Assembly (NCBI RefSeq): GCF_030546645.1
Contig: NZ_JAUOTO010000002.1
Coordinates: 992,001 to 1,056,000, forward strand
Direction: 5' to 3'
DNA: 64,000 nt
DNA from: Flavitalea plasmicola
GTDB taxonomy: Bacteria > Bacteroidota > Bacteroidia > Chitinophagales > Chitinophagaceae
Shown here: positions 29,529 to 56,268 of the stretch, in pieces
Numbering within the stretch: position 1 is the stretch's first letter
Layout: each line of letters begins with the position of its first letter
Made by a program: the position numbers and the translations under genes
The notes under the pieces: model-generated
What the model was told of the DNA's origin: nothing
The model's database searches: none
What the model saw: the letters and a program-made list of their open reading frames with translations, nothing else

Positions 29529-29545
29529 GTTGAAAAAGTTTACTA

Positions 29546-30475: not shown

Positions 30476-30480
30476 ACAGT

Positions 30481-31407: not shown

Positions 31408-31415
31408 AGATCTAT

Positions 31416-33499: not shown

Positions 33500-33514
33500 G
33501 AATTAGTTTTGGTA

Positions 33515-33895
33515 TTATCCTATGACAGCTATAGCATCGATCTCTACTTTGATCCCATCAGCCAGGACGGATTGCACCGTCGTCCTTGCCGGCAGAACAC
33601 CGGTGAAAAAAGAAGCATACGCCGCATTGTATCTGTCAAAATCATTGATATCGCTTAAATGCACGGTACATTTCACGATGTCATCCACTGTTCCTCCCGC
33701 CGCCTCCACGATCTTTCGCACATGCGCGAGGGTCAGCAAGGTCTCTTCTTCAATGGTGCCATATTTTACTTCCCCTGTGGCCAGGTCCAGGGGCCCCTGT
33801 CCGCTGACAAACAACATTCCGCCCGCCAGGACACCCGAAGAGTAGGCGCCCGTCGAAACAAACTTACCAGGATGCTTAATTTCTTTCTTTCCCAT
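33515..33895 (-). CDS. ridA: RidA family enamine/imine deaminase
   Basis: 126 residues, one RidA/YjgF domain, with the key arginine in LPARTTVQS and the conserved GGMLFVSGQGP. RidA proteins hydrolyse reactive enamines and imines released by PLP enzymes, or act as related deaminases in catabolic pathways. Its start overlaps the creatininase-family gene by 20 bases. Its presence suggests an amino-group-bearing or imine intermediate in this pathway, consistent with amino-sugar breakdown. Confidence 0.88.
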   Translation of the reverse strand: MGKKEIKHPGKFVSTGAYSSGVLAGGMLFVSGQGPLDLATGEVKYGTIEEETLLTLAHVRKIVEAAGGTVDDIVKCTVHLSDINDFDRYNAAYASFFTGVLPARTTVQSVLADGIKVEIDAIAVIG

Positions 33896-36160: not shown

Positions 36161-36913
36161 TTAAATATCCATCATTTCGGCGCTTAATGCATCCAGGAAT
36201 AAAATGGCGTGTTCATGATTACGAAGTATGGACGCAGGATAATCCTCCACCACCTCCCGGTGTAAAGTATTGAACACTGCCTGGGCTTTCGACCGGCCCG
36301 GTACGATGCAATAAATGAACCGGCCCGACATCAAGGCAGGAATGGTCAAAGTAATAGCGTGGGTGGGCACGGACTCCAGCCCGGGAAAGCAACCGTCGTT
36401 CACCTGCTGCTGCCGGCAGGACTGGTCCAGGGCTACCACCTTCACCGCATACGGATCGTCAAAATCCGCCGTGGGGGGATCGTTGAAAGCAATATGACCA
36501 TTCTCCCCAATGCCCATGCAGACGATGTCCGGAGGGAAGCTTTCTAACAATGCGCCATACCGTTGACATTCCTTCCTGAGGTCCACCGCATCCCCATTGA
36601 TGTAATACACGGCAAGAAAAGGCACTTTATCGAACAATCTTTCCCGGAGAAAATTTCCAAATCCCTGCACCGCATCGGGACGCAATCCAATATACTCATC
36701 CATATGAAAGGCGCGGATCCTTCCCCATTCGATGGGGGCCTGCCGCAAGGCCTGCAGGAATTCCTGCTGGGAAGGCGCCGCAGCAAATATGATATTCACC
36801 GTGGCCTGCTGCCGCAACAGTTCATTGATCCGCCTTGTCACTTGTTGCGCGGCAGCTGACCCCATCTCGGTCCGGGACTGGTGCACCTGCAATTCCAGCT
36901 TATTTATTCTCAT
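36161..36913 (-). CDS. nagB: Glucosamine-6-phosphate deaminase
   Basis: 250 residues, close to the usual length. The catalytic AFHMDEYIGL (D72 by count, as in E. coli NagB) and GIGENGHIAFNDPP (H140) are present. The enzyme converts glucosamine 6-phosphate to fructose 6-phosphate and ammonia in the cytoplasm. Its start overlaps nagA by 14 bases, so the two are coupled. The sequence is fairly divergent, so a related hexosamine-phosphate substrate is possible. Confidence 0.85.
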   Translation of the reverse strand: MRINKLELQVHQSRTEMGSAAAQQVTRRINELLRQQATVNIIFAAAPSQQEFLQALRQAPIEWGRIRAFHMDEYIGLRPDAVQGFGNFLRERLFDKVPFLAVYYINGDAVDLRKECQRYGALLESFPPDIVCMGIGENGHIAFNDPPTADFDDPYAVKVVALDQSCRQQQVNDGCFPGLESVPTHAITLTIPALMSGRFIYCIVPGRSKAQAVFNTLHREVVEDYPASILRNHEHAILFLDALSAEMMDI

Positions 36914-38090
36914 ACACCCATTCTCCTTTTATGATTGTAGCATGTACATTTATATCTTGATCGAAAATGACGATGTCGGCATCCATTCCCGGCGCCAGGG
37001 CCCCCTTGCGGTCCCCCAGGCCAAGTATGGAGGCTGGCGTAGCCGTCATCATCCGAACGGCTTCCGGCAGCGTGACACCCGCCTTCCGGATCATGGTACG
37101 CACCAAACGATCGGCCGTAGCCACACTGCCCGCAAAAGCACTGCGATCCGGCAGTTTAGCCACGCCATCCTCCACCAGCACCTTCAGCCCGTGATGGATA
37201 TTGCCCAGTACGCTGTCACCTTCCGGCATTCCGGCAGCCCGCATGGCATCCGTAATGAGGGCCGTTCGCGCAGCGCCCTTTATTTTATACACCAGCTGGA
37301 GCAAAGGTGCGGGAAGGTGTACGCCGTCGGCGATGATCTCCACGTCCATACCATCGATGAGAAAAGCCGCCTCCACCACTCCGGCATAACGGTAGGCATT
37401 CCGGCGCGTTACGCCCGACATCCCGGAATAGAGATGCGTCGCCAGCGTATAGCCATTATTAAAACCTTCCAGCGCTTCCTCGTAGATGGCGTCCGTATGC
37501 GCCATCGATACCAGCACCCCCTTCTCACGAGCTTCGTGGGCAAAAGCGATGGCGCCTTTCAATTCAGGCGCGGCGCTCCACCGCCTGATAAGATGCGCCT
37601 TTTCCAGGATCTTCCGGTACTCCGCTGGATCCGGATCGCGGATATAGCGCGGATCCTGGGCGCCACGCTGGTTCATGGCAAAATAAGGCCCTTCCAGGTG
37701 CATACCCAGGAACTGGGCGCCCTGGGTGTTCTTCGGCAGCGCCCGCTCGTAGGTGGCTATCGTATGCAGGATCTCTTCCCCGGACCCGGTGAGCGTCGTA
37801 GGCAGCATGGCCGTGGTGCCAAAGCGGGCATGTGTCTCCGCGATGGCCAGGAAGGCGGATTCATGACCATCCATAAAATCGAAGCCCCCGCCACCGTGTA
37901 CATGCAGGTCGATAAAACCCGGCGACACATACATTCCCCGTGCATTGAAGGTCCTGGCTCCCGGCGCAGGCAGATCGCCGGCGCCCATGGATTGAATGAT
38001 GCCGTCTGACAGCACAACTGATCCACTTTCCACCATCCCGCCGGGGGTGATGACCTTTCCGTTGATAATTTTCGTCAATGCCTGGCTCAT
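36900..38090 (-). CDS. nagA: N-acetylglucosamine-6-phosphate deacetylase
   Basis: 396 residues of the amidohydrolase superfamily. The motifs FIDLHVHGGGGFDFMDG, MHLEGPYF, SMAHTDA, ATHLYSGMSG and LITDAMRAAG match NagA. It removes the acetyl group from GlcNAc-6-phosphate before NagB acts. The gene lies between the sugar transporter (4-base overlap) and nagB. No N-acetylhexosamine kinase is encoded in the window, so phosphorylation must be done elsewhere. Confidence 0.92.
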   Translation of the reverse strand: MSQALTKIINGKVITPGGMVESGSVVLSDGIIQSMGAGDLPAPGARTFNARGMYVSPGFIDLHVHGGGGFDFMDGHESAFLAIAETHARFGTTAMLPTTLTGSGEEILHTIATYERALPKNTQGAQFLGMHLEGPYFAMNQRGAQDPRYIRDPDPAEYRKILEKAHLIRRWSAAPELKGAIAFAHEAREKGVLVSMAHTDAIYEEALEGFNNGYTLATHLYSGMSGVTRRNAYRYAGVVEAAFLIDGMDVEIIADGVHLPAPLLQLVYKIKGAARTALITDAMRAAGMPEGDSVLGNIHHGLKVLVEDGVAKLPDRSAFAGSVATADRLVRTMIRKAGVTLPEAVRMMTATPASILGLGDRKGALAPGMDADIVIFDQDINVHATIIKGEWVYENK

Positions 38091-39379
38091 GCTGCTCCCT
38101 TTAATTTAAATGTAGCCCAGTTCCTGATGCGATGGCCGTATACTGCGTAGAAAAACAGATAACAATAACATGGCAGCAGGATCCAGTAAGCCTGCTGCAC
38201 CCCCGATCTGTCGGCCAGCCATCCATACAGCAGCGGCAGGATCGCATTTCCGCACAGGCCCATCACCAGCACGGAAGCACCCGTTTTGGTAAACCGTCCC
38301 AGATCGCGCAGGGCCAGCGGCCAGATGCCCGCCCATATAAGCGAATTGGCAAACCCCAGAAGCACGAGGAACCACAGCGATATGTCCGCCGTATGTCCCC
38401 CGAACACCACCCTGCCGCCGGACAGCACGATCAGCAACGACAGCAGGATGCCCAGCACCGTACATACCAGGAAAGCCTTCGCCTGGCTGATCCAGCGCGG
38501 AATACTGATAATACCGGCAATATACCCGGCGATCGTCGCCAGTAAAGTATAGGAAGGAAAGACCTTTGATTCGGGCAGATGTATATCCATGGAAGCCGCA
38601 TACCCGATGATCGTATCTATTGCCAGCACCTGCGTCCCCACATGGAGGAAAATGGCCAGCGCGCCCAGGATCAAATGAGGGAACTGAAATATGCTGGTCT
38701 TGCCCAAATTGGCCGACGCCACCGTCTCATCCTCATGTTCCGTATCGATCTCCGGCAATGAAGAATACCGCACCAGCCATCCCAGGAAGAGGAGAATAAC
38801 GCCCACGCAGGCATACGGTATGATCACCCTCCTGATCAACTCATCCAGCGCCGCATTTCGCTGAACGGCCCCCATCCGGGGCAGGCTTCTGAACAGCGCG
38901 CTGTCCGTCGGCCGCAGGACCACTGCTGCAAATAACAACGGCGCGAGAATGCCCGCCCCCTTGTTGCACACACCCATAATGCTGATGCGCTGTGCCGCCC
39001 GCTCTCTGGGCCCGATGATCGTAATATAGGGGTTGGCTGCCGTCTGAAGGATCGCCAGCCCCGCGCCAATGGCGAACAGTCCTATTAAGAACCCCGCATA
39101 TGTCCTGCCCAACGCCGCCAGGATAAACGCAAAGGCGCCCCCTGCCATTATCCAGAACCCGGCCATCATGCCTTTCCTGAACCCGATCCTCCTTAACAAC
39201 CAGGCAGCAGGCAACGAGATCACGAGATAGGAGATATAAAAAGCAAATGTCACCAGGTATGACTGGAAATTATTCAGCTCACAGGCTATCTTGAAATAAG
39301 GGATCAAAATGGCGTTGACCCAGGTGACAAACCCAAATACAAAGAATAGAATGCCGATTATAGTAATGTTCTTTGTCAA
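38087..39379 (-). CDS. MFS sugar transporter (FucP/NagP-like)
   Basis: 430 residues with about twelve membrane helices. The N-terminal FGFVTWVNAILIPYFKIACE and the central IGAGLAILQTAANPYITIIG segments are typical of the fucose/GlcNAc/glucose:H+ symporter group. Location before nagA and nagB (4-base overlap with nagA) points to N-acetylglucosamine or a related hexosamine as cargo across the inner membrane. This is strong by context, not by sequence alone. Confidence 0.85.
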   Translation of the reverse strand: MTKNITIIGILFFVFGFVTWVNAILIPYFKIACELNNFQSYLVTFAFYISYLVISLPAAWLLRRIGFRKGMMAGFWIMAGGAFAFILAALGRTYAGFLIGLFAIGAGLAILQTAANPYITIIGPRERAAQRISIMGVCNKGAGILAPLLFAAVVLRPTDSALFRSLPRMGAVQRNAALDELIRRVIIPYACVGVILLFLGWLVRYSSLPEIDTEHEDETVASANLGKTSIFQFPHLILGALAIFLHVGTQVLAIDTIIGYAASMDIHLPESKVFPSYTLLATIAGYIAGIISIPRWISQAKAFLVCTVLGILLSLLIVLSGGRVVFGGHTADISLWFLVLLGFANSLIWAGIWPLALRDLGRFTKTGASVLVMGLCGNAILPLLYGWLADRSGVQQAYWILLPCYCYLFFYAVYGHRIRNWATFKLKGAA

Positions 39380-39381
39380 GC

Positions 39382-41499
39382 TTATTTGTCTTTTGCAAAC
39401 CCTTCTTTGATAACCTTATATTTTGCAGGGAACCGCTCAGGGTCCTGGTGGCAATAGATCAGTACGCCATCCGCGGACCTCCTTCCTCTCTCCAATACCT
39501 CTTTTACATATTCCGCCGTAGGATCTCCCAGGCTGCTATGCGCCGTCGCATAAATATCCAAAAAAACAGGGAAACCCGGGGAGAATCTCGTACGCAATGC
39601 AGCGATCTCGCTTTCCACATGGGTGGCGTCCTGCAGATTGGCCGACACCGATTCATTCCGGTAAGGGAATAGGATGCCATCCAGCAAGCTGCCATAGGCC
39701 GCCGCAAAAGCGGGGGTCACCTGTTCAAAGTAGCTGCAGGGAATAAATGCCAGCCTGGGATTGATCGCACGGGCGGCCGATTGAAAATCCTTCACGTACT
39801 CCGGGGTAAGGAATTTCAGGTTGTGTACAAAATCATCGATGCTCCAGGCCACCAGGTTCGGCTCCTTCAGGCTGAGCTTAGCCAGCCCGACAGCCCATTT
39901 TTTAAAATCAAGGCGATAAGGTTCCGAATAATCTTTTTGAAAAGGCGGCGATTCTGATGGCGGCACGAGGGTTACCCAAACTTTGATGCCCGCCTCCCGC
40001 GCGACAGGAAGGAAACCGGCCAGGGCATTCATATCATTTGCCTTTCCCCAAGCCAGCCAGTGATAGGTGTTGGCGTGCAGTTCTTTCAGCTGACGGATCA
40101 GCAAAGCCTGATCCACTTTTCCCTTTTTATCCCGGGGAGGGAACGCATATGTGCCCAATGTACCGCGCAGCCCACCCTGGCTGCCCGCGGCCGCCATCAC
40201 GTGTCCTATCGCCTTGAAGACACTGTCTTCCACTCCTTTCGCAAAAGGTCCCGGCAATCCATAATAGATCATGTTCTCTTCACCCTCATATCCACCCTCT
40301 TTCAGCACCCGCTCTGAAGGGATATAACACATCACCTCACTGGAATATCCCGCTACAAAAATATTCTCTCCGATGAATGCATGTTTGGCCCTTAAAGAAT
40401 AATCCACCACCACCTCGTCACTGAGCGCCAGGATGGTGAGATCATCCCCAAAACGCACGGCCTGCACAGGATAGGTCAGATGATCCTGTTGCCATCCCCT
40501 GTTATAAGCCTCCAGCATCAGCTTTGCCCTGCGCTGCAGGAATTTATTATTCCCAACGATATCCTTTTGGTAGATGCTGACGTCAAACGGACTGAAAGGC
40601 AGGTCCACCTTTGTATAAGCGGTATAGACAGGCGCCCGCACAACCTGCATCACTCCTCCCAGCGCTTTTTGCACGGCATCCGCCAGCTCCTGGCCATGCG
40701 TACGGGCGAGCTCCACGGTCCCGCGGGGAGCAGGGTTTTGGTCGCCCGCGCATCCCATGAGGAACATGGCCTGGACACCCGGATGGGCTTTCTCCAGCGC
40801 CAGCTGGGCGAATCCCGCATAGTCGCCATTGATGAGAAAATTATTGTCCACCAGTGTAGTGTTATGGCACGCATAGCCAAAAAGGATCGCCAGCTCCTTA
40901 CCATCCATCCCCACTACTTTCAACACAGGCACATCATGATCGACGGGTCCTGGTCCAAAAAGCTTCTCACGCCGGTTGACAGCAAACCCGGCTGTTCCCC
41001 TTGCGGTATACAACTTTGCGGGCGCCAGATTGCCCAATGCCGTCCCTATCAGCTTTACCAGCTTCGTGGTCAGCTGCTGGTCATACAAGGACACCAAACG
41101 CTGGTCTTCTTCACCGAAGTCATAGATCATGTCTACACAGGGCCAGATCATCGGCGCAGAATGCGTGTGCGAGGAATTCAGCAGCAGCTGTTCCCGTTTG
41201 ACGCCATAGAGGCTATCCACCTGCCGTATGACATCTTCCGAAATTTCATGTGAAAGGCCCAGGAGGTCCGTCGTCACAATCACGATACGGCCACCCGGGC
41301 TACTTTCAACCACCAGCGCCTTTGCCCAGATGTCATGCAGCACGCCTTTAGAAGGTTCGTCCCGTCCGGCATACCCATTCAGCCACATCGGCCCCTCTGG
41401 CGTGATCTTCACCCTGGCCATACCTGCACGGATAGATCCATCCGCCGCCCATACCAGCCGGCTGCACAATATCAGGCATAAGAATATTTTCCACTTCAT
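39382..41499 (-). CDS. Neutral-ceramidase-like N-domain fused to a TIM-barrel-like C-domain, secreted
   Basis: 705 residues with a signal peptide. Residues 20-440 match the neutral/alkaline ceramidase N-terminal domain: zinc-site motifs NSSHTHSAP (111-116) and FGYACHNTTL (H212). The catalytic serine found in true ceramidases (GDxSPN) is replaced; the equivalent reads GCAGDQNPAPRG (249-260). From about residue 455 there is a second domain (GTYAFPP, HANTYHWLAWG, VAWSIDDFVHN) that looks like a glycosidase-type barrel. This is therefore probably not a ceramidase, but a hydrolase of the glycan system with unknown substrate. Confidence 0.75.
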   Translation of the reverse strand: MKWKIFLCLILCSRLVWAADGSIRAGMARVKITPEGPMWLNGYAGRDEPSKGVLHDIWAKALVVESSPGGRIVIVTTDLLGLSHEISEDVIRQVDSLYGVKREQLLLNSSHTHSAPMIWPCVDMIYDFGEEDQRLVSLYDQQLTTKLVKLIGTALGNLAPAKLYTARGTAGFAVNRREKLFGPGPVDHDVPVLKVVGMDGKELAILFGYACHNTTLVDNNFLINGDYAGFAQLALEKAHPGVQAMFLMGCAGDQNPAPRGTVELARTHGQELADAVQKALGGVMQVVRAPVYTAYTKVDLPFSPFDVSIYQKDIVGNNKFLQRRAKLMLEAYNRGWQQDHLTYPVQAVRFGDDLTILALSDEVVVDYSLRAKHAFIGENIFVAGYSSEVMCYIPSERVLKEGGYEGEENMIYYGLPGPFAKGVEDSVFKAIGHVMAAAGSQGGLRGTLGTYAFPPRDKKGKVDQALLIRQLKELHANTYHWLAWGKANDMNALAGFLPVAREAGIKVWVTLVPPSESPPFQKDYSEPYRLDFKKWAVGLAKLSLKEPNLVAWSIDDFVHNLKFLTPEYVKDFQSAARAINPRLAFIPCSYFEQVTPAFAAAYGSLLDGILFPYRNESVSANLQDATHVESEIAALRTRFSPGFPVFLDIYATAHSSLGDPTAEYVKEVLERGRRSADGVLIYCHQDPERFPAKYKVIKEGFAKDK

Positions 41500-41509
41500 G
41501 GTTGTATTG

Positions 41510-42835
41510 TTATTTAGCGACCGGTATGCTTACCAGGTCCGTACGGGTCTTCCCCTTTTCCGTCACCCTCGCCAGTGTATACACCGTCCCATCCTGTCCC
41601 ACAGCAATGGAATTGACATACAGCGGCCGCTGCCCGTCCGCATAGAAGATAGCGCCATGGTCCCGGTATCTGCCCGTAGGAATATCATACGTCACAAGGT
41701 GCAGGTCCTCCAGTCCCTTCGCCTCCCCCATCGCCGTGCTGCTCTTGCCCTTCACACGATGTCCTTCCACATAGACAGGCCCCCCGGTGAGATAATACAA
41801 GGTATGCTGGTCCGGGCCCAATATGAATCCGAGGTAACCATAGCTGAACTGGTCAAACATCCCGCTGCGTTTGGAAGGTGCGGAAGTGATGCGATCGATG
41901 ACGTTCACTCTTTCAGCGTGAGGATCGAATTGAAAAAGATAGCCGGAGTTGCCATGCACGCCATAAACCGACTTGTTCCCCGGATACCAGACCGTCTGCC
42001 GCCAGTTATATCCCATATGACCGGCCGAAGTGGGATCATAGCTACCGAAATAATCTTTTTTCATATCCTCCTCCAGGGGTTCCAGCGCAGACCCACCCAG
42101 CTTCAGCCGGAAGATGGTGCCCTCCGACGTCGTGGCATACACAGCCCCATCCGCAGGATCGATGGCAAGGCTACGGCACAAGGTCCGGAAGTTTTTACCG
42201 GAACCATTCTCGCCCTCGCCGGACAAAGGGCCGATGTCCTTCAGTTCCTTTTTTTCCAGGTCATACCGGAAAACATAACCGGTGGGCCAGGTGATGCAAT
42301 AAATCAACCCCCGCTTTGTATCCATGTTCATCGTGAGGATACCTTCCTGGTGCGGCGCGATGGCCAGGTCATCGAACTTCCCGGTCTTCATGTCATACGC
42401 CAGTATATGCCCTCCGGGATAGGCCTTGTATCCTGCCGGAGGTATGCCCATCTTCTCCATACCGTCCACCATACTGTAGTAACCCACATGCGTGGCGAAA
42501 TACAGCTTGCCGTTGGATTCCACAAAACGTACATGACTTTTACCCTGCACAATGGTTTTAAGCCCCTTCTCGCCGCAAGCCTCCGTAATGTCACCGCAGT
42601 GATGGATCTTCCCCGTCCGGGGATCGAAGGAATACATCTGTCCACCCGTATCGATGGATTGAGAGCTAAGCACATAGTAGATCCTGCCGTCACTGGCGGC
42701 AGAAATCGCATTATACGTATCGTGCGCAATGTCAAACCCGGAGTTGTACGTTGTAGCCCGCAACTGTTTTGAAGGTCCTTGCGCAAATCCTGCTGTCATC
42801 ATTAGCATTAATAGTGTTCCTGTCAATGTTTTCAT
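41510..42835 (-). CDS. Secreted beta-propeller protein of the glycan cluster
   Basis: 441 residues with a signal peptide (MKTLTGTLLMLMMTAGFAQG). Blades recur as short strands with YSFDPRTGKI, LAYDMKTGKFD and FRYDLEKKELKDIG. The fold resembles secreted propellers and oligogalacturonide-lyase-like proteins in polysaccharide loci. The catalytic residues of a lyase cannot be confirmed. Its stop overlaps the aminotransferase start by four bases on the same strand, so its function is tied to that module. Confidence 0.65.
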   Translation of the reverse strand: MKTLTGTLLMLMMTAGFAQGPSKQLRATTYNSGFDIAHDTYNAISAASDGRIYYVLSSQSIDTGGQMYSFDPRTGKIHHCGDITEACGEKGLKTIVQGKSHVRFVESNGKLYFATHVGYYSMVDGMEKMGIPPAGYKAYPGGHILAYDMKTGKFDDLAIAPHQEGILTMNMDTKRGLIYCITWPTGYVFRYDLEKKELKDIGPLSGEGENGSGKNFRTLCRSLAIDPADGAVYATTSEGTIFRLKLGGSALEPLEEDMKKDYFGSYDPTSAGHMGYNWRQTVWYPGNKSVYGVHGNSGYLFQFDPHAERVNVIDRITSAPSKRSGMFDQFSYGYLGFILGPDQHTLYYLTGGPVYVEGHRVKGKSSTAMGEAKGLEDLHLVTYDIPTGRYRDHGAIFYADGQRPLYVNSIAVGQDGTVYTLARVTEKGKTRTDLVSIPVAK

Positions 42836-44190
42836 TTCTTCATATTTAGTGTACCCGCATTTGCATGTATCTTTTCAATCGCGTTGACGATGTCGTCCAT
42901 ATCCGGCTTATCGGCCAGCAGCAGGGACTGATAGAACCATACAGCCTCTTCATTACAAAGCTTGTCATTCAGGGGACAATTGTTCCGATCGTTAAAAGCA
43001 TGCATGTCCAGTTCCGCCGCGGTATACATCTTCCTGTAGTTCTTCGACCCGAACGCGTTCTCCAGGTAGGGCATCTTGTTCAGCGGTGCATATCCTTCGC
43101 TGCAGGGAATGCCTTCCGCATTCAACGCTTTCAGGAAGTCAGCCCTGGGCAGCCCCTTAAAGCCTTCCTTGTCGTACCGGAACGGGAACAGGTGGAAAGC
43201 GGCCTTGGTAACATTGTCGTATAGCTTGTAGGGAATGACGCCGGGTATCTTGCTAAGCTTCCCCCTGAGATAAGCAGCATTCGCGTTTCTTTTCTCTGTC
43301 TCCCCTTGCAATCGTTTCAGCTGCCCCAGTCCGATGGCCGCCTGGTATTCCGTCAACCGCAGCTTGTTGCCGGCGATCAACGTACCCGCGTTCACCTGCC
43401 CGACGACAGAGCCATACGGGTTGCCATAATTGTGGTAGGAATAACATTTATCCATGAATTGCCCGTCGTTGCTGGTGATCGCCCCACCTTCCCCGATGGC
43501 CAGGTTCTTCGAATTCTGAAAGCTCCAGCAGCCTGCGTGGCCAAAGCTACCGACACGCCGGTGATCGATCTCTGCACCATGCGCCTGGCAGGCATCTTCG
43601 ATGACGACCAGGTCATGCTTTTTTGCGATCTCCATGATACGCACCATATCGGCGGGGAGCCCCAGGATATGCACGGGGATGATGGCCCTGGTCCGGGGGG
43701 TGATCTTTGCCTCTATTTTACCGGCATCTATCTGCCAGCTGGCCACATCGGTGTCGACAAAGACGGGCATGGCTCCCGTCGCAAGCACCGCTGCCACCGT
43801 AGCAATAAAAGTATAGGGGGGCACGATCACCTCATCACCGCCGCCGATGCCCATCTGCAGCAGGGAAGCGATAAGGGCATTGGTCCCATTCACCACCGTA
43901 AGGCTTCTCTTCGTCCCGATGTAGGCCGCCCACTCCTGCTCGAACTGAGTGACCAGGGACGCCCTGGACCAGATCCCGCTGCGCAGATCGTCGACGACTA
44001 TCTTCTCGTCCGTGTCCTTGTTCCAGATGGGCCAGGCCGGCCAGGGTTTTGTCCGCACGGGACTCCCCCCCAATATGGCAGGAGTCCGCCGGTCCGTGGC
44101 CGACAATATCGAAGGCGTAAGCAATGTCCCGGCAGCTACGATCCCGGTTGATTTGAGAAATGCTCTCCGGCTTTTATTTTTCATGTTCAT
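42832..44190 (-). CDS. Tat-exported DegT/DnrJ/EryC1-type PLP aminotransferase
   Basis: 452 residues. The start MNMKNKSRRAFLKSTGIVAA is a twin-arginine signal with RRAFLK. The mature enzyme has the DegT features: NGTNAL (101-106), the PLP-stacking region VIEDACQAHGA (D199), and the PLP lysine in WSFQNSKNLAIGEGG (K228). The family transfers amino groups to keto-sugars, normally in the cytoplasm during amino-sugar synthesis. Here it would be exported folded with its cofactor, in a catabolic locus, beside a Tat-exported Gfo/Idh/MocA enzyme. Transamination or deamination of amino-sugars in the periplasm is the natural hypothesis, but unproven. Confidence 0.88.
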   Translation of the reverse strand: MNMKNKSRRAFLKSTGIVAAGTLLTPSILSATDRRTPAILGGSPVRTKPWPAWPIWNKDTDEKIVVDDLRSGIWSRASLVTQFEQEWAAYIGTKRSLTVVNGTNALIASLLQMGIGGGDEVIVPPYTFIATVAAVLATGAMPVFVDTDVASWQIDAGKIEAKITPRTRAIIPVHILGLPADMVRIMEIAKKHDLVVIEDACQAHGAEIDHRRVGSFGHAGCWSFQNSKNLAIGEGGAITSNDGQFMDKCYSYHNYGNPYGSVVGQVNAGTLIAGNKLRLTEYQAAIGLGQLKRLQGETEKRNANAAYLRGKLSKIPGVIPYKLYDNVTKAAFHLFPFRYDKEGFKGLPRADFLKALNAEGIPCSEGYAPLNKMPYLENAFGSKNYRKMYTAAELDMHAFNDRNNCPLNDKLCNEEAVWFYQSLLLADKPDMDDIVNAIEKIHANAGTLNMKK

Positions 44191-44194
44191 GATT

Positions 44195-45253
44195 TTAGAT
44201 CTTAATATTCTTCTTCATCGCCGACCGCGCCTTCTCCAAGGTCGCTGCCAGGCTCACTGCCGCCCCGCCTTTCCGGCGGCTTTCATCGGCAGCCTCCATA
44301 AATGCATAGATCTCCAGCGTCTCGTCTTCGCTCACCGGCGATACGCCGGTCCCGAAAAAACGGATGATCTGCCGCAGCAACGCCTCATATCCCGAATACG
44401 GACCCACCCGCGCCACCCCTTTCTCGCCAAAGACGGTGCCGCCATACTCGTGCTGGCCGGTGCGGGTTCCCCGGAAAGTACCGATGCGCCCGTCATTCCA
44501 GACGCCCGTCACCACATCCGTGCTTTCGGTATAGATGCGGATCACATCCTTACATCCCTTTCCCATTACTGTGATCAACGTCTCGATACCATGGATACCA
44601 TACCAGAAAAAGTCCGGGTGATGCGGCTCCAGCGGCGCCGGGCTGAAAGCATCCGCCCCCAGCACCTTACCCACCGTCTTCCCTTCTGCGATGTCCTGCA
44701 TGCCCTTCATATAGCGCAACGACGAGGCCGAAAAGACAGGCACCTTGTATTTCTTTGCCGCTTCGAAGATGGCCACCGTCTCCGCCAGCGTGCCGGCAAC
44801 AGGTTTGTCGATGAACAATGTCTTACCCGCCCGCATGACGGTCAACGCCTGTTCCAGATGGGGGCGACCGTCATTGGTCTCCAGCAATATCACGTCCACT
44901 TTATCCAATAAGATCGCGATGGAATCCACGATCTCCACTCCCCTCTTCTTCACCTCTTCCGTATAAGAAGGGATCCTTTCCGTGCTGCTCTGGATGTCCC
45001 TGCTGCCCCACGGATAGGCAGCCACTATCCTGTATCCATTGTACTCCGGATCAGGCGCGTCCCCGTTCAACGCCTCTACGAACGCAGTGCTATGGGATGT
45101 GTCCAGGCCGATGATGCCCACCCGCTTGCCGGGCATGGGATTGTTTTGGATCTTTCGTACGATCATAGCAGCGGCAGAACCTGTCAGTCCAAGACCGATG
45201 CCTGCCATTGACGCTGACGTTATGAACTTTCTCCGACTAAAATGATGTCCCAT
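44195..45253 (-). CDS. Tat-exported Gfo/Idh/MocA-family oxidoreductase
   Basis: 352 residues. The N-terminus has a twin-arginine signal (FSRRKFITSASMAGIGLGLT). The dinucleotide fold starts at RVGIIGLDTSHSTAF, a variant in which the glycine loop reads GLDTSH, and includes TLFIDKPVAGT (the EKP-like motif). It lies 4 bases from the exported aminotransferase gene, recalling cytoplasmic oxidoreductase-aminotransferase pairs that make 3-amino-sugars (such as NtdC/NtdA). An exported pair could oxidise and (de)aminate a sugar in the periplasm. Confidence 0.85.
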   Translation of the reverse strand: MGHHFSRRKFITSASMAGIGLGLTGSAAAMIVRKIQNNPMPGKRVGIIGLDTSHSTAFVEALNGDAPDPEYNGYRIVAAYPWGSRDIQSSTERIPSYTEEVKKRGVEIVDSIAILLDKVDVILLETNDGRPHLEQALTVMRAGKTLFIDKPVAGTLAETVAIFEAAKKYKVPVFSASSLRYMKGMQDIAEGKTVGKVLGADAFSPAPLEPHHPDFFWYGIHGIETLITVMGKGCKDVIRIYTESTDVVTGVWNDGRIGTFRGTRTGQHEYGGTVFGEKGVARVGPYSGYEALLRQIIRFFGTGVSPVSEDETLEIYAFMEAADESRRKGGAAVSLAATLEKARSAMKKNIKI

Positions 45254-45267
45254 GGTCCTGTCGATTT

Positions 45268-47256
45268 TTAATATTGTGCTACTGCATATGTTTCGATCCC
45301 CGTAAGGTCTATCCGGATAACATTCTCTGCAAAAACAGGTCGCCGCGTATCCCCTATCTCAGGGCTTCTTACAGACAAGGCTCCGAAATGGATCCTGCTG
45401 TCGTCAAAAGCGTATTCCAGCATGTTATCCGTCATATCCGAATGAAAATCCTGCAGGATGGGCGTTCCTGAGCCCTCCTTCAAAGTAGGATGCGCCACGG
45501 CCACCAAACCCCTGTTCAAAAAATGAATGGCGGCGCCATCCTTATATTTTCTTATCCTCGCCGCCCATAGCCTGTTGCCGGATAGCTGTCTCAGCAAGGG
45601 TTTGAATCTACCATGCAGGATAAGGTCATTAAGCGGATCGGCGGTCGTGGCGGAGCGAATGATGGTTAGGTGTTTGTAGTGTTTTTCTTCCAGTTCCTCC
45701 GACAAAGCACGTCGTCTACGGAACCCCTTTTCATCGTGCGTACCGAAGGGCAAAGCCAGCCACACCGTTCCTCCCTTCGCAAGAAAGGACTGCAAGGCCC
45801 TGAACTGGCTGTCAGACACGCAAGCCACGCCATCTAGGATCAGGGGCGTATGCTCTTCGCTCAGGGCCTTGCTGTCGGAAAGCTCGTGGGACCTGACAAG
45901 GCGATAGCCGACATTATATGCAAGCAAGCGGAGCGACCAGGCCTTGACCCTGTCCCATTGTTCAAGCCCGTCTTCGTCCCGCCAGCCGTTTTCCCTGCAA
46001 TAGCTGCTGCTGACAAGCCTTACCTCTGCCACATCTTCCCCCTCCGTGTCCTTCAGGTCGCTGTTGCGCATGTCCCAATTATTGTAAGGCCGCATAATAT
46101 CCTCCACTTCCATGGCATCCGCCGGATCTTCTTCCAATCTTCCATACAATGTGCTGCTCCAGTTGGCCACTCCCCAGAATCGGCTTAGGCACCATCCAAG
46201 ATAGCCACCCTTTTCCCGGATCATATAGCTGATGGTGATAGCCGGCGCATTTCCCTTCTTCTGCGCGGCGTCCTTTTGGTACAGCGCTTCCGCATCCATG
46301 ATCATCCAATTGACCATCTTCATATTGATGCCTACATTCTCCAGCATGAAGAGGTCCAGGTAGGGCGCCATCTTCTCCAGGTTGAGGGCGATGGAATTCA
46401 AAACGATCGGGCCTGCATTGGAACAACAGGTCATCAGGGGCAGCTCGCCGATGGTGCTTTTGATCATTTTCAGATGATCAGCCACCGCATCCGCCTTCAT
46501 CCGCAACCAATCCCTGAAAGCGGGATTGTCATAATTTCCCCAGGCAGACCTGTCCTCCAGCGTGGTATCTCCCCAAAAGGACCGTTCGCCAAACGGAGGG
46601 ATCTCGTGCCCGTAGTCCTTTCTCAACCGCTCGCGGCAATACCTGCATCCACAGGTAGTAAAGCCGGCATAATCGCACATATCATCCACCTCTATCCCGT
46701 CAATAGGCACTTCCTTCATGAGCCTTTGCAGGTATTTCTTATGCATATCCAGAAAACCGGGGTTGTTGTGGCAGAACACGTCCAGCTCATAATAGTCCGC
46801 ATACCCTCTGCCGCCGTCACGAAGATCTACCTCGCAGAGATCGTTGAAATAATATCCTTCATATTGGGCCAGCGCGGCGGATGAAGCATCATGGAACAAC
46901 AGCACATGGTGCCGGTTGGTCCTCATCAGCTCCTTCAGCCTGTGATCCCCCCTGGGCCTTTCCACATGATTGCAGGAATAGTGCTCCATGAACTTTATAT
47001 CATATTGATGCAGCTCTTCGCAAACATTGGCAAAATAGCCGTGCAATTGCCCGAAATAATTCGAAAAGTCAAACCGGACGTGGAATCCGAAATTGATGGC
47101 CGTATCGATCCCCGCTTTCGAAAACCCCTCTGCCCTTCGCCGGATCTTGTCGACAATTTTTTTCTGCGGCCATTGAATATCTTCAAAGGTCGTCCACCAG
47201 CTGGCCGCACGCCGGGGTATAAAACCAGGTGGCCGGGTACTTTTCTCCATGATCAT
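45268..47256 (-). CDS. Predicted cytoplasmic glycoside-hydrolase-like protein, unassigned family
   Basis: 662 residues from the ATG at 47256, which overlaps the previous stop codon (ATGA). The N-terminal ~400 residues look like a barrel hydrolase: FEDIQWPQKK at the start, the DGIEVDDMCDYAG acidic strand, and a cysteine motif GCRYCRERLRKDYG seen in many unclassified GH42/alpha-amylase-like proteins. The C-terminal part (DGVACVSDSQFRALQSFLAK) resembles a beta-galactosidase trimerisation (GATase-like) domain. No signal peptide is present, so it would act on imported oligosaccharides. Substrate unknown. Confidence 0.65.
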   Translation of the reverse strand: MIMEKSTRPPGFIPRRAASWWTTFEDIQWPQKKIVDKIRRRAEGFSKAGIDTAINFGFHVRFDFSNYFGQLHGYFANVCEELHQYDIKFMEHYSCNHVERPRGDHRLKELMRTNRHHVLLFHDASSAALAQYEGYYFNDLCEVDLRDGGRGYADYYELDVFCHNNPGFLDMHKKYLQRLMKEVPIDGIEVDDMCDYAGFTTCGCRYCRERLRKDYGHEIPPFGERSFWGDTTLEDRSAWGNYDNPAFRDWLRMKADAVADHLKMIKSTIGELPLMTCCSNAGPIVLNSIALNLEKMAPYLDLFMLENVGINMKMVNWMIMDAEALYQKDAAQKKGNAPAITISYMIREKGGYLGWCLSRFWGVANWSSTLYGRLEEDPADAMEVEDIMRPYNNWDMRNSDLKDTEGEDVAEVRLVSSSYCRENGWRDEDGLEQWDRVKAWSLRLLAYNVGYRLVRSHELSDSKALSEEHTPLILDGVACVSDSQFRALQSFLAKGGTVWLALPFGTHDEKGFRRRRALSEELEEKHYKHLTIIRSATTADPLNDLILHGRFKPLLRQLSGNRLWAARIRKYKDGAAIHFLNRGLVAVAHPTLKEGSGTPILQDFHSDMTDNMLEYAFDDSRIHFGALSVRSPEIGDTRRPVFAENVIRIDLTGIETYAVAQY

Positions 47257-48677
47257 AAGATTTTTGTGTCGCCACCTTTTTCCATCGAAATGTCTATTGG
47301 CTGATTGCTTTTCCACGCGCCGGCGGTAAAATCAGGTACATCGATCGAGTTGCTGCGGTTGGCCACTGACCATACGCTCAAGGGGGCGACAGCGCTCCAA
47401 AGCGCCGCGTCATAGACATTCTGATCCAGGGGCAGTCCATTTCGCAGACAGTCGATGGTCCGCCAGTCCATGATAAAATCCATTCCGCCATGGTCGCCGA
47501 TGCCTTTCGCGGCCCCGCCGATCTTTTTGATCAGGGGCGGCATATACTTTTCTTCCAGCTCCTTGTATTCCGCCGCGCTCAGCCATTCATGTCCCCGGGC
47601 ATAACGCGCCGGTTCCGGGTATTTAAGACCCACGCCCTTCGTGCCGCTGACCAGCTGGATGCGGGAATAAGGCCGTGGAGAGGAAACGTCGAACTGCACC
47701 ATGATGGTCTTTCCATGCGCCGTGCGGATCATGCTGGTGTTCATCGTCCCATTGAAATGCCTCCCCACATACGGCTTATAGAAAGCATCGGTAGCGGCCA
47801 GCTTCTCCGCCAGCGGGCCCGTAATGAAATCGTTGGATGACATGGATACCACGTATTCCATTTTGTCACCCCGGTTGATATTCAGCAATTGGCACAATGG
47901 GCCCAATCCATGTGTCGGGTAAAGATTTCCCTTCCTTTTATATGCTTCTTCCAGCTCCCACATCTGGTAGAAATGTTCTTTCGAGAACATCAGCTCCTGT
48001 AAATTATGGATATATGCCCCCTCACAATGCACGATCTCGCCGAAGAATCCCTGCCTGGCCATATTAAGGGTCAGCATCTCCGACATATCGTAGCAACAGT
48101 TCTCCGTCATCATACAATGTTTCTTCGTCCGCTCAGACGCCTCCACCAGCTGCCAGGCCTCTGCAATGCTCTTAGCCGCGGGCACTTCCACGCAGACATG
48201 CTTACCATGGTTCATAGAGAAGACAGCGATAGGCGTATGCAGCGCCCAGGGCGTAAGAATATAAATGAGGTCCAGATCATCCCGCTCACAAAGTTTCTTC
48301 CATACTTCCGGTCCTCCGGAATAGAGCGCCGGATGATGGCCCGATGCTTCCACCAGCTTTTGTGCCAGCGCCACTCTTTCAGGCCGGAGATCGCACAAAG
48401 CTTTTATTTGCACCCCTTCGATCCTTGTCATCCGCTCTACCGCGCCGTATCCCCTGTTACCAATACCGACAAACCCTATCCTCACCGTCTCCAGCTTTGG
48501 TGCGGCATATCCGCTCATATTAAACCGCTGTTTGGGCGGCGCCTGCTCCGCCTGCTGCCTGATCTGGTCCAGTTCTTCCACGCTGCCCGCATAGGCAGGC
48601 AGGAAATGGGCGACAACTCCCAATCCCGTAAGACCCGACATCCTTAAGAAATCCCGACGGTTATTTTTCATATTCAT
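47253..48677 (-). CDS. Tat-exported GH109-like NAD-dependent glycosidase
   Basis: 474 residues from the ATG at 48677 (4-base overlap with the upstream stop). A twin-arginine signal (NNRRDFLRMSGLTGLGVVAH) is followed by the hallmark FNMSGYAAPKLETVRIGFVG with the NAD loop GIGNRG. The stretches TPWALHTPIA and VEVPAAKS are also typical. This is the GH109 pattern, known from alpha-N-acetylgalactosaminidases that use a redox-assisted elimination mechanism with bound NAD. It adds a HexNAc-directed activity to the cluster. GH109-like proteins with other specificities exist, so the substrate is not fixed. Confidence 0.85.
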   Translation of the reverse strand: MNMKNNRRDFLRMSGLTGLGVVAHFLPAYAGSVEELDQIRQQAEQAPPKQRFNMSGYAAPKLETVRIGFVGIGNRGYGAVERMTRIEGVQIKALCDLRPERVALAQKLVEASGHHPALYSGGPEVWKKLCERDDLDLIYILTPWALHTPIAVFSMNHGKHVCVEVPAAKSIAEAWQLVEASERTKKHCMMTENCCYDMSEMLTLNMARQGFFGEIVHCEGAYIHNLQELMFSKEHFYQMWELEEAYKRKGNLYPTHGLGPLCQLLNINRGDKMEYVVSMSSNDFITGPLAEKLAATDAFYKPYVGRHFNGTMNTSMIRTAHGKTIMVQFDVSSPRPYSRIQLVSGTKGVGLKYPEPARYARGHEWLSAAEYKELEEKYMPPLIKKIGGAAKGIGDHGGMDFIMDWRTIDCLRNGLPLDQNVYDAALWSAVAPLSVWSVANRSNSIDVPDFTAGAWKSNQPIDISMEKGGDTKIL

Positions 48678-49735
48678 AATAGACATTCTTCTAAAAATCT
48701 GGGTGTATATCCATTTTCCTGCGCCCATCGCACAGCCGTCAATATCCTCTCCCGGAAATCCGGCTGATAGTTGAAATAAAAAGGATAATAATACTGCTCA
48801 TGCACCAGCAAGTCCACATAGGGCGGCAATCCGCCACGCTGTCTGTAACCGTCCAGGTGCGGCCGGATATCAGCCAGGTCCGTTTTATCGATGACAATGC
48901 TGGTCCGGAAGAACACCAGGTCCTGCTTGATATCCTTCCAGACAAAACGCTTCTTCAAATGTCTTCTTACTTCGACGCCATGATAAAAGCTCACCGCCGG
49001 CAGGTCGTCATCCACATTGAAATAGCCCAGCAGCGCCTTGTATCCAAGGTCCTTCACCGCCCTGGCGCCCTCCACCGTCAGCTCACCCCAATGGATGGTC
49101 GTCACCGGCCCCATCACTTCCTCCCCGGCAAAACGCCGGATCTCCTTTATCACCAGCTCGCCATCTTCTTTCACTTTTTCATATCCTGCCGTCCTGTACG
49201 GCATGTCCGGGAATTCGCCCAATGCGTGAAAGCTCAGCCTTAACCAGCCGGCCTGGGCTTTCCACTCTTCTTTGAATTCATCGCTCAGCTGCGAAAGGTT
49301 GAAGCCATCCGTCTCGTAAAAAAGATTCAGATGGACTTTGGTGCCATAGGTGTCATGCACCTGCTTCAGAAAGGCCAGGTAGGAATTGTCGAAGATAGAC
49401 CGGTATTTTCCCGCATTGTTATAAATATCCCTTAAGAACCAGATGTTGTCATCGATGGACAGCCGGTATCCGCCGGCAAAATTCCGCAGCCGGTGGACCG
49501 TCAGAAAAATCCTTTCCCCCGTCGTTTCATTGCTCACCTCGATCTGATTCTCATATGCTGTCAGGACCGCCGGCGCTGCAAACACTCCCTTCCCATAGAT
49601 GGCCTTGACGCCTCCCACCCGGATCTCACTTCCCGGGTCGCTGGCCACGGTCACCTTAATGACAAGCCCGTCTCCCGACACCACGCCGTCCCTTTCATGT
49701 AGCATATCTCCATTTATCGGGCTAATTATTTCCAT
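48674..49735 (-). CDS. Putative NodB-like TIM-barrel protein of the glycan cluster
   Basis: 353 residues without signal peptide. The first 90 residues form a beta-sandwich-like domain (VVSGDGLVIKVTVAS). The rest begins YRLSIDDNIWFLRDI, whose paired aspartates recall motif 1 of NodB deacetylases. Later elements are LRLSFHALGEFPD, TTIHWGELTVEG and VDLLVHEQYYYPFY. I infer a divergent polysaccharide-deacetylase-type barrel, but the second histidine motif is not canonical, so the reaction is uncertain. It overlaps neighbours on both sides (10 and 4 bases), so it is integral to the operon. Confidence 0.55.
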   Translation of the reverse strand: MEIISPINGDMLHERDGVVSGDGLVIKVTVASDPGSEIRVGGVKAIYGKGVFAAPAVLTAYENQIEVSNETTGERIFLTVHRLRNFAGGYRLSIDDNIWFLRDIYNNAGKYRSIFDNSYLAFLKQVHDTYGTKVHLNLFYETDGFNLSQLSDEFKEEWKAQAGWLRLSFHALGEFPDMPYRTAGYEKVKEDGELVIKEIRRFAGEEVMGPVTTIHWGELTVEGARAVKDLGYKALLGYFNVDDDLPAVSFYHGVEVRRHLKKRFVWKDIKQDLVFFRTSIVIDKTDLADIRPHLDGYRQRGGLPPYVDLLVHEQYYYPFYFNYQPDFRERILTAVRWAQENGYTPRFLEECLL

Positions 49736-51599: not shown

Positions 51600-54500
51600 C
51601 TAAAAATCCGGCTTGAATAATTCTTCAAAAGATTGATTGGCCACGTATGCCCGCTGATGCGTGATCCGGTGATCCAGCACCTTCAGCAGCAATTTCTCCC
51701 AAAGTCCGTATTCTACGTCAAACCTTCCAGCCATGGTGTTCAGCCGGTAGGGCATATTCTCCGACAGCCAGCTCTCCTTATAGTCGTCCTTGAGTCCGCC
51801 GCCCTCATCCATTACATCCTGGATAAATCCATGGCAGATGTAAGCAATATCGTAATACACGAAATCATTCTTTTTCTTATCCAGCATGGCTTCATTCCAT
51901 CGATCGCAGATGATCTTCGCCCAAATAAAACGGGTGGCCGTATAGTGGAGCAAGCGGGCCGAGACCAGCAGGGAATGGATAAAGGCGCTGTCCCTCCCAC
52001 TCTTTTCCAATGCCCTGATCAACCAGGTCTGCACTTCTTCGCTCTCCTTGCGGGCTTGCTTAAATGCTTCGATATGCGTACGGGTATTTTCCAGGTAATA
52101 CGGCGAAAAAGGGTTCGACCAACTTTCTACAATGGTCCCTCCGGGGAGGTTGGATGTATTCTTCCCGAGGCATTTGGACAGCTGGTCGATCGTACGACCC
52201 AAACCCAGCAAAGCCTCCCTTAGCTCATCGCTCGCTGCCGGGTACATTACATCGCTGTAACGCGCAGTAAAAGTTCTTTTATCCGGCGCCGTTCCCTGCC
52301 ACGCGCCTATGCACCCATAGGCCATGAACATCCAGGACGGGCGTACATACGGCTCTACGGCATCCGTCCATACCGAGGTGATAAACCCCAATGTCTGATG
52401 CTGCATACCTGCCTTCAGCGTGAGATCGATATTGTCATAAGTATAGTCCGTCGATGGATAGATATGGCCCCAGCCGGATACGGCAGGCTGAATAAAAAAT
52501 GTTCTTTTCTCTTTTAACACCGGGTCCAGGTATTGATGGATCGCCGCGGTATCAGGAGCATACTCCCATATGACAGGGATCACTTCTTTAGGGAACTTCG
52601 ACATAATGTCCGGGTAGTAAGTGTTCATATCCGTCCACGCCAGCACTGTTTTCCCGTACTTTTTCCATTCGTTTGCAACGAAGTCCAGGTGCTGCAGCCA
52701 CAATTGCTCGGAATGAATGCTGCTGTCCACGTCCTGAGATATACGATTCGTCTCCCAGGTCTCGTCGAAACCCACATGCACAAAGGGGCTGCTGAACAGC
52801 TGCGTGTACTGTTTGATCCAGTCCTGTAATATCACCTTCACCTGCGGGTTCCTGGGATCCAGTTCCTCGCCATATTTTCCGATGGCCAGTGAAGCATATT
52901 TTTCCTGTTTCAGCAAATCGTGTAAATGACCGTAAAAAGCCACAAAAGGGATCACATCCATACATCTTTCCCGGGCATAGGCGATGATCTCCTTTATCTG
53001 TTCCTGCGTATAAGCCGCGCCATAGTTCATCCCCTCATATCCCTTCATGGCAATGCTCACCTCGTTGTAGAAATAATATTGGTTCACTTTCCACTTCGAC
53101 AGGAAGCTGATCTGCCGTTTGATCTCCTCCACCGTCGGCAATCCGCCATGGGCAAAGTCCATCATCACGCCCCGGTGAGGCAGTGCAGGCTGGTCCTCTA
53201 TTTCTACAAAGGGCAACGACGCCTGCCCGCCTGACAACTGGCGGATGGTCTGCACGGCATAGTAAAGCCCGGCGGCAGTGTGGGCATTTACCCGTATGCC
53301 CTGGGCATCGACAACTAATTTATAATATTCTTTATTTGCTTCTTTTCCGTCTATTGTCCAACGAAGCGAGGTACCAACGCGGGCGGCGGCACCCTTGTTT
53401 TTTTCCCTAAGGATGTCTTTTAGTTCATTCAGGGCAAACCTCATCTCCGGAGTGGTATTGGCTGGAACGTTAACAGAGAGTCCCGCCAGTGCCAGCTGAC
53501 CTTCCCCATAGGCGATATGCTGCGGCGCCGGCAGCAGGACAGGCTGCGGCGTCACTGTTCCGCCACCCAAAAGTTTGTACACTTCACAGCCAGCCAGTAA
53601 AAAAGCGCCCACGCCGTATACATTCGTGCTTTCATAGTCCACCTGGTCGGGCCTGTCCGAGATCGCCTGCACATACCCCAGCTTACCATCCGGATGCACC
53701 GAGCTGGTCAGCGCCATCCAGGCTTTCAGGACGACAGGTTCATATTTCTCGCGCTGCAGCACACCGTGGTTGATGCCCCAGGCCAGGGCATAACAATAGA
53801 AGCCTGTGCCGCTGGTCTCTTTGCTGGTGAAAGCGCCAGGGTCCAGCAGAGAAGCATGCCAGGTCCCGTCAGGCTGCTGGAGCCCCGCGATCCTGGCCGC
53901 CATGGCTTGAAATTGCTGCTCGAACTTTTTCCGTCCCCGATAGCCGGAAGACATATTCTCCAGCATCCTGGCCAGTCCTCCCATTACCCAGCCATTGCCT
54001 CTCGACCAGAATACTTTGGCTCCATTGGCTTCCTTCCTGCCAAAAAAAGTGCTGTCCCTGAAAAAGAGGCTTTCGCCCGGATCGAACAAGTAAGCCGAGG
54101 TCTTCCACCACAGGCTATCGGCCTTCTTCAGGTAACGCATATCGCCCGTGGCCGTCGAAAGATAGGCAAGGGCAGGCGGCCCCATGTACAGTGCGTCACA
54201 CCATGCCCATTCATGAAAATAAACTTTATTCTTAAAGGCCAATGATTCATCAAAACGCCTTGCAACAATGGTATCCGCCTGTTCCTTGAAATTTTTGATC
54301 ATCTTCGGCTCCCGGTATTTCATATACAACAGGGAGTACATCTGCCCGACACAGTAGTCATCTGCAAACAAACGATGCTCGCCCGTCTGCCAGCCATTAC
54401 CTTCGCCTATTTCATACAACCACCGGTGATATTTTTCTTCATTGCTCAACTTCGCCCATGCCGCCATACCTGTATACAGTGAGGCATCTTCCCATTCATT

Positions 54501-54653
54501 CTTCACGTACGGGTTACGACCGGCCTTAAATTCCATGATCTGCCAGTCCGCCACCCGCTTCATGTAGTCTATGATACCGGCTTTATTATCCTGAGACCAT
54601 ATATTTCCGGCGATGAGAAGAGAAAACAAAGCAGTATACACTTTCCTCGACAT
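51600..54653 (-). CDS. GH105 unsaturated uronyl hydrolase fused to a GH20-type beta-N-acetylhexosaminidase
   Basis: 1017 residues with a signal peptide. Residues about 25-365 are a GH88/GH105 barrel: ADDYCVGQMY (D98/D99), WCDALYMGPP (D153) and FWSRGNGWVMGG. Residues about 372-490 form a GH20b-like domain. From 492 there is a GH20 catalytic barrel (HRGVMMDFAHGGLPTVEEIK) with the catalytic pair in VHVGFDETWE (D630, E631). The C-terminal 200 residues are helical. One chain would thus remove an unsaturated uronyl residue and then an N-acetylhexosamine, alternating as in a repeating uronate-HexNAc polymer. The fusion gives the clearest clue to the substrate of this locus. Confidence 0.82.
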   Translation of the reverse strand: MSRKVYTALFSLLIAGNIWSQDNKAGIIDYMKRVADWQIMEFKAGRNPYVKNEWEDASLYTGMAAWAKLSNEEKYHRWLYEIGEGNGWQTGEHRLFADDYCVGQMYSLLYMKYREPKMIKNFKEQADTIVARRFDESLAFKNKVYFHEWAWCDALYMGPPALAYLSTATGDMRYLKKADSLWWKTSAYLFDPGESLFFRDSTFFGRKEANGAKVFWSRGNGWVMGGLARMLENMSSGYRGRKKFEQQFQAMAARIAGLQQPDGTWHASLLDPGAFTSKETSGTGFYCYALAWGINHGVLQREKYEPVVLKAWMALTSSVHPDGKLGYVQAISDRPDQVDYESTNVYGVGAFLLAGCEVYKLLGGGTVTPQPVLLPAPQHIAYGEGQLALAGLSVNVPANTTPEMRFALNELKDILREKNKGAAARVGTSLRWTIDGKEANKEYYKLVVDAQGIRVNAHTAAGLYYAVQTIRQLSGGQASLPFVEIEDQPALPHRGVMMDFAHGGLPTVEEIKRQISFLSKWKVNQYYFYNEVSIAMKGYEGMNYGAAYTQEQIKEIIAYARERCMDVIPFVAFYGHLHDLLKQEKYASLAIGKYGEELDPRNPQVKVILQDWIKQYTQLFSSPFVHVGFDETWETNRISQDVDSSIHSEQLWLQHLDFVANEWKKYGKTVLAWTDMNTYYPDIMSKFPKEVIPVIWEYAPDTAAIHQYLDPVLKEKRTFFIQPAVSGWGHIYPSTDYTYDNIDLTLKAGMQHQTLGFITSVWTDAVEPYVRPSWMFMAYGCIGAWQGTAPDKRTFTARYSDVMYPAASDELREALLGLGRTIDQLSKCLGKNTSNLPGGTIVESWSNPFSPYYLENTRTHIEAFKQARKESEEVQTWLIRALEKSGRDSAFIHSLLVSARLLHYTATRFIWAKIICDRWNEAMLDKKKNDFVYYDIAYICHGFIQDVMDEGGGLKDDYKESWLSENMPYRLNTMAGRFDVEYGLWEKLLLKVLDHRITHQRAYVANQSFEELFKPDF

Positions 54654-56255: not shown

Positions 56256-56268
56256 TGTCGGCGTTTTT

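Follow-up and report, generated by a model that had tools for sequence, protein, structure and literature searches.

The window analysed here, a stretch of 64,000 nucleotides from Flavitalea plasmicola (contig NZ_JAUOTO010000002.1, positions 992,001 to 1,056,000; host genome of 8.7 Mb), carries two adjacent minus-strand genes whose products, a DegT/DnrJ/EryC1/StrS-type aminotransferase (hereafter DegT) and a Gfo/Idh/MocA-fold protein of 352 residues (hereafter Gfo352), are both very probably exported from the cytoplasm, as judged from their N-terminal sequences. By analogy with paired enzymes of aminoglycoside biosynthesis, we tentatively propose, with somewhat less than even confidence, that the pair deaminates an amino-sugar outside the inner membrane, by transamination to a keto-sugar and subsequent reduction; in this proposal we infer the export, the direction of the reaction, the substrate, the order of the partners, and the cofactor of Gfo352, whereas the identity of the genes, the conservation of the RR motifs, the single DegT clade, the PLP residues, the co-occurrence, and the GH109 fusion described below are shown by sequence comparison. 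The two open reading frames, which the initial annotation had paired at 42832-45253, are separated by 4 bp, with Gfo352 upstream of DegT in the reading direction, and both score above the Pfam cut-offs for the expected families. The closest relatives of DegT come from assemblies labelled Chitinophagaceae and Sphingobacteriales.

Signals were predicted by motif and comparison rather than by a signal-peptide program. Both proteins open with RR-x-F followed by a moderately hydrophobic stretch, as expected of a twin-arginine translocation (Tat) signal, and the strings RRAFLK and SRRKFI on which the initial annotation had based its claim of Tat signals are indeed present. R8, R9, and F11 of DegT do not vary across the 14 rows aligned (the window protein and 13 relatives), within a segment (residues 1-37) whose mean identity is 32%, versus 61% in the mature part; because the motif is invariant within so fast-changing a segment, it exceeds chance expectation. 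Residues 1-32 are modelled with a predicted local distance difference test (pLDDT) value below 50, and nine signal-less relatives begin to align at query residue 38, the alignment of no signal-less relative starting before residue 33. With the signal left out, a tree of 69 DegT rows places the 24 RR-bearing rows, one of them a Phycisphaerales sequence, in a single clade (support 100/98). These 24 rows were labelled as Tat-type by script (RR/KR-x-[FILM] near the start, identity above 35%, alignment from before residue 40), and three hits with long upstream frames (L028, with a chance RRAL, L030, and L039; L numbers denote loci of relatives) were removed before the tree was built; the label of L054 arose from a chance upstream KRPM, its true motif being the RRRF further on. 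Within the Gfo352 family, RR is found in 37 of 40 loci, L105 has RK, and L156 and L159 have no signal.

The strongest single clue for export, itself read from sequence, comes from L015 and L016, where Gfo352 is joined in frame to the end of a Tat-type GH109 protein. The fused part matches only from residue 42, and thus Gfo352's own signal is gone, while the DegT encoded beside the fusion retains its RR. Each of these genomes also carries a second, unfused Gfo352. A sequencing artefact was considered and is disfavoured, the fusion being in frame in two distinct assemblies, both metagenome-derived. It seems most improbable that the signals are non-functional and that DegT and Gfo352 remain cytoplasmic: the prediction draws on motif and comparison, and no localisation experiment was found in the literature, but the RR is kept where the sequence changes fast, the RR-bearing DegT rows share one clade, the Gfo352 signal is lost exactly in the GH109 fusions, and TatC is encoded in the genome (204.6 bits). 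A cytoplasmic biosynthetic pair was likewise dropped as a model, given the conserved signals and the catabolic neighbours.

DegT is a clear member of its family (PF01041, 324.6 bits against a curated cut-off of 19.8). K228, which lies in FQNSKNL, and D199 are invariant in the same 14 rows, and we take them to be the lysine that binds pyridoxal 5'-phosphate (PLP) and the aspartate that pairs with the pyridine nitrogen in the DegT family; judged from these residues, the PLP site is intact, as had been claimed. The highest profile scores link DegT to BtrR, a 2-deoxy-scyllo-inosose aminotransferase (279.5 and 277.2 bits), and the best profile and fold matches overall are BtrR/RbmB, 7b0d, Fic25, and AHBA (3-amino-5-hydroxybenzoate) synthase. 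The NtdA/NtdC pair, named at first as a known example of such a pair, was therefore dropped as the nearest model, since among proteins of known structure NtdA is outscored as a DegT match (130.3 versus 196.5 bits), and for Gfo352 the fold fits GenD2, 3db2, 3ezy, and KanD2 about equally. The same genome has three more DegT genes with strong matches, all of them signal-less. Elsewhere, in four genomes, Tat-type DegT genes lie in groups of two or three that span about 16-45 kb, with members from two subclades (L076 and L078 on contig 43 of G265, L082/L083, L084/L085, and L086/L087). Amidohydro_2 genes, some of them Tat-type, adjoin DegT in the Tat-type DegT loci L074, L076, and L082 according to Pfam, and Amidohydro_2-like frames were recognised by eye in L073, L075 (slightly below the cut-off), L079, L081, and L084.

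Gfo352 is less orthodox. It matches PF01408 (37.4 bits against a curated cut-off of 24) and has the two-domain fold of the Gfo/Idh/MocA family, whose hallmarks are a GxGxxG dinucleotide loop, an EKP-type lysine, and a D-x3-H catalytic pair. At the position of the dinucleotide loop, G-x-D-T-x-H is found in place of GxGxxG in 37 of 40 Gfo352-family loci, and the loops of L117, L156, and L159 fit neither pattern; H221 is invariant in the Gfo352 rows, and the residue four before it is W217, where an aspartate is expected. Of the 40 loci, 37 were read through a filter requiring KP and W[YF]G[IV]H, so that the KP count among them is not independent, KP being part of the filter. The remaining three were read separately: L102 has an RR signal and a D-T-S-H loop, L159 is a frame with two stops and neither signal nor loop, and L156, a weak and distant relative (81.7 bits), is signal-less and retains a similar L-D-T-S-H loop; the unusual loop may accordingly predate the Tat-type signal. 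Because GxGxxG is replaced, the loading of Gfo352 with nicotinamide adenine dinucleotide (NAD), asserted in the initial annotation, is unproven and cannot be upheld in that form. The same substitution speaks for a different reading, in which Gfo352 would be a sugar-binding or metal-using relative and not an NAD enzyme, and the presence of the dehydrases ColD and E1 in the DegT superfamily speaks for one in which DegT would be another type of PLP enzyme, catalysing elimination or dehydration; we regard either variant as improbable. Assignment of Gfo352 as a myo-inositol dehydrogenase, a levoglucosan dehydrogenase, or a member of the BT2158 family was rejected, all scores lying far under the model cut-offs (for the BT2158-type glycoside 3-dehydrogenase model NF058561, 20.4 bits against 750). 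In fold comparison with VIA-align, GenD2 ranks first, tied with 3db2, 3ezy, and KanD2; it is thirteenth by Foldseek.

Whether the two proteins belong together was approached through genome surveys in which few candidates were scored per genome and in which a surveyed genome may equal, or sit close to, a named one. Of 396 genomes surveyed at the level of the order, nine carry an RR-bearing DegT (G006 adds a tenth match, which lacks a signal) and 23 carry Gfo352, the nine with an RR-bearing DegT all being among the 23 (5 of 5 genera). At the level of the phylum, 395 genomes gave six DegT matches, of which three were new, each of these accompanied by Gfo352, which itself was found in 10 of 296 genomes (one match being weak). 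The named genomes with a clade-A RR-bearing DegT also all encode Gfo352 (5 of 5, namely L015-L018, of which L018 is a locus of the cultured Dyadobacter sp. CY261, and the Planctomycetota genome L052). Hypergeometric values for co-occurrence in the order survey are 1.4e-12 by genome and 1.4e-6 by genus, both of them too small given the relatedness of the genomes and the large size of those that degrade glycans.

Several observations weigh against a functional pair. Gfo352 lies within 2.5 kb of DegT in 8 of 17 clade-A DegT loci, and DegT lies within 2.5 kb of just 10 of 47 Gfo352 genes (a non-random sample, collected through the DegT and Gfo352 searches); more of these 47 lie within 8 kb of a nag gene (20) or within 2.5 kb of a Gfo452-like gene (19). 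In the L052 genome, DegT and Gfo352 are about 2.4 Mb apart. The two genes are adjacent in the window, as initially noted, but they are not fixed neighbours. These data suit an alternative in which there is no functional pair, Gfo352 serving a nag-linked, Gfo-type redox pathway of glycan breakdown and DegT acting separately with the ceramidase-like and 441-residue proteins described below, their co-presence arising as shuffled polysaccharide loci accumulate in the same glycan-degrading genomes. The ceramidase-like gene lies within 2.5 kb of a clade-A DegT in 10 of 17 loci, more often than Gfo352 does. Against this alternative, which we consider rather unlikely, stand the presence of Gfo352 in every genome checked that has a clade-A RR-bearing DegT (9 of 9, 3 of 3, and 5 of 5) and the direct adjacency of the two genes in several genera and families. 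Since all genomes with an RR-bearing DegT have Gfo352 and most Gfo352 genes have no DegT nearby, DegT seems to follow Gfo352, or the lifestyle of Gfo352, rather than the reverse.

The surroundings of the pair form a minus-strand polysaccharide locus (Table 1) encoding, in order, SusC, SusD, a GH88-GH20 protein, a heparinase II/III-like protein, a 353-residue protein, GH109, a 682-residue protein, Gfo352, DegT, a 441-residue protein, a ceramidase-like protein, and nagP-like, nagA, and nagB-like products, in agreement with the earlier description of a degradation locus. The enzyme first labelled GH105 is present, although Pfam identifies a GH88 domain joined to GH20 in a single protein of 1017 residues; relatives in L015, L016, and L145 align from residue 366-370 onward, that is, over the GH20 part only. 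This fusion suggests a substrate in which an unsaturated uronic acid adjoins an N-acetylhexosamine. nagA exceeds its cut-off (TIGR00221, 274.8 bits), nagB-like matches Glucosamine_iso in Pfam, and nagP-like scores 354.6 bits with the NagP model, under its cut-off of 625. The window GH109 retains its HGG loop. The ceramidase-like gene is the most constant DegT neighbour tested, its share rising to 13 of 17 clade-A loci within 8 kb; the protein retains an HTHS motif and falls outside the neutral ceramidase model (40.3 bits against 1200), and its C-terminal extension (residues 444-703) is encoded separately in L085 and L086, whereas the L015 and L016 genes lack it. The gene for the 441-residue protein lies within 2.5 kb of DegT in 8 of 17 clade-A loci. 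The 682-residue protein matches nothing in Pfam at E 0.001 and nothing in the PDB up to E 1; it lacks a signal in the window, and its L085 homologue has an RR signal. Two further Gfo-like proteins of the locus (34780-36150 and 59636-60994) have the non-canonical loops LDPGHFH and GFSDRF. Genes for SDR, DHDPS, enolase-superfamily, 3HCDH, RidA, and creatininase proteins occupy 28782-34706, and this set partly recurs near the locus relatives L072, L145, and L146 and, weakly, L135 and L136.

Table 1. Features of the polysaccharide locus and of the two exported candidates, in window coordinates.
Feature	Position	Strand	Basis
DegT/DnrJ/EryC1/StrS aminotransferase with Tat-type signal, 452 residues	42832..44190	-	PF01041
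Tat-type signal of DegT, about residues 1-32, RR-x-F and hydrophobic stretch	44095..44190	-	end by eye
Codon of K228, putative PLP lysine in FQNSKNL	43507..43509	-	invariant in 14/14 rows; aligned with lysine region of BtrR
Gfo/Idh/MocA-fold protein with Tat-type signal, 352 residues (Gfo352)	44195..45253	-	PF01408
Tat-type signal of Gfo352, about residues 1-30	45164..45253	-	end by eye
Dinucleotide-loop position G46-x-x-G-L-D51-T52-x-H54, non-canonical	45092..45118	-	columns invariant 9/9
D149-K150-P151, position of Gfo-family EKP lysine	44801..44809	-	invariant 9/9
W217-YGIH221-G, position of Gfo-family catalytic histidine	44588..44605	-	W217, Y218, G219, H221, G222 invariant 9/9
SusD and SusC-type pair	54675..59394	-	Pfam
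GH88-GH20 fusion	51600..54653	-	Pfam
Tat-type GH109	47253..48728	-	PF21252, 134 bits; nearest PDB 6t2b (GH109), 335 bits
682-residue protein, between GH109 and Gfo352	45268..47316	-	no family assigned
441-residue SSL_N-like protein, recurrent DegT neighbour	41510..42835	-	comparison of clade-A loci
Neutral-ceramidase-like protein, PF04734 N-terminal	39382..41499	-	70.2 bits
nagB-like, nagA, nagP-like (N-acetylglucosamine (GlcNAc)-type uptake and use)	36161..39379	-	TIGR00221, NagP model, Glucosamine_iso

Under the proposed deamination, DegT and Gfo352 would fold in the cytoplasm and then be exported through Tat, and their targets would be sugars released by the polysaccharide locus, probably not nucleotide-sugars. 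PLP-bound DegT would move the amino group of an amino-sugar residue or glycoside to a keto-acid, leaving a keto-sugar, whereupon Gfo352 would reduce the ketone to an alcohol or, in the manner of glucose-fructose oxidoreductase, transfer hydride from one sugar to another; the product may then enter GH109 or the nagP-nagA-nagB route. The neighbourhood alone hints that the ceramidase-like protein may first strip an N-acyl group to give the free amine. A broader proposal, which we regard as doubtful, is that a deacylase of this ceramidase-like type, the PLP aminotransferase, and a Gfo-fold oxidoreductase fusable to an NAD-dependent glycosidase together constitute an extracytoplasmic deamination module that would convert polysaccharide amino-sugars to neutral or GlcNAc-type sugars before uptake. 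The pair might instead run in the opposite direction, aminating a keto-sugar outside the cytoplasm for decoration or salvage, given that amination is the biosynthetic role ascribed to GenD2/GenS2 (PMC4340712); this is improbable to us because amino donors would be required in the periplasm and because the locus, with its SusC/D, GH88-GH20, GH109, and nagP-nagA-nagB products, is catabolic.

Should deamination of this kind take place, periplasmic glycan breakdown would come to include PLP transamination, in Bacteroidota and, on the evidence of one genome (L052), in Planctomycetota. Unusual amino-sugars are common in bacterial capsules and biofilms. The breakdown of glycans by exported Gfo-type redox enzymes is itself recent knowledge, with BT2158 as the example (PMC11300592), and extracytoplasmic PLP chemistry would bring such amino-sugars within its reach. 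The proposal also raises the question of how enzymes that depend on PLP or NAD regain their cofactor in a place where little of it is free. Concrete entry points are the recurrent DegT clade, the GH109 fusion, and the odd Gfo352 loop.

Among known systems, GenD2/GenS2 and KanD2/KanS2, which act in aminoglycoside biosynthesis and are not known to have an export signal, resemble the window proteins in combining a Gfo-fold dehydrogenase with a PLP aminotransferase that acts on a sugar inside a glycoside. GenD2/GenS2 appears to be the best analogue of the pair, and adjacent dehydrogenase and aminotransferase genes of this type are found in the window; Gfo352, however, shares only 18-19% identity with GenD2 and KanD2, both of which were crystallised with NAD(H). 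GenS2 and GenD2 jointly, with 2-oxoglutarate and NADH or NADPH, convert the 3''-amine of kanamycin B and tobramycin to a hydroxyl in vitro, whereas GenS2 alone gives trace or no product in this reverse reaction (PMC4340712). Following that precedent (PMC4340712), we consider the oxidative deamination first suggested less probable than a transamination with subsequent reduction. BtrR/RbmB, 7b0d, AHBA synthase, and Fic25 compare with DegT as its top profile and fold matches. None of these is known to be exported, and their substrates are cyclitol and other ketones. On the Gfo side, BT2158, a periplasmic glycoside 3-dehydrogenase in Bacteroides, likewise represents an exported Gfo-type enzyme of Bacteroidota glycan breakdown, but Gfo352 falls far below the model cut-off for that family, and the available part of the paper describes no PLP partner with BT2158 (PMC11300592). 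GH109 belongs to the same superfamily as Gfo352 and is its neighbour in the window and its fusion partner in two relatives; Gfo352 differs in having no match to the C-terminal GH109 domain of Pfam and in lacking the GxGxxG-type loop seen in the window GH109. PvdN, which is exported via Tat, serves pyoverdine formation and belongs to another PLP subgroup. Its likeness to the exported DegT is that of a fold type I PLP enzyme located in the periplasm, titles among the references of PMC7497351 calling it a periplasmic aminotransferase. As the initial annotation had surmised, the open-access literature searched yielded no description of a system with an exported DegT. The DegT half and the Gfo half each have an exported precedent, and the pair itself has a non-exported one; the exported pair would thus constitute a new variant.

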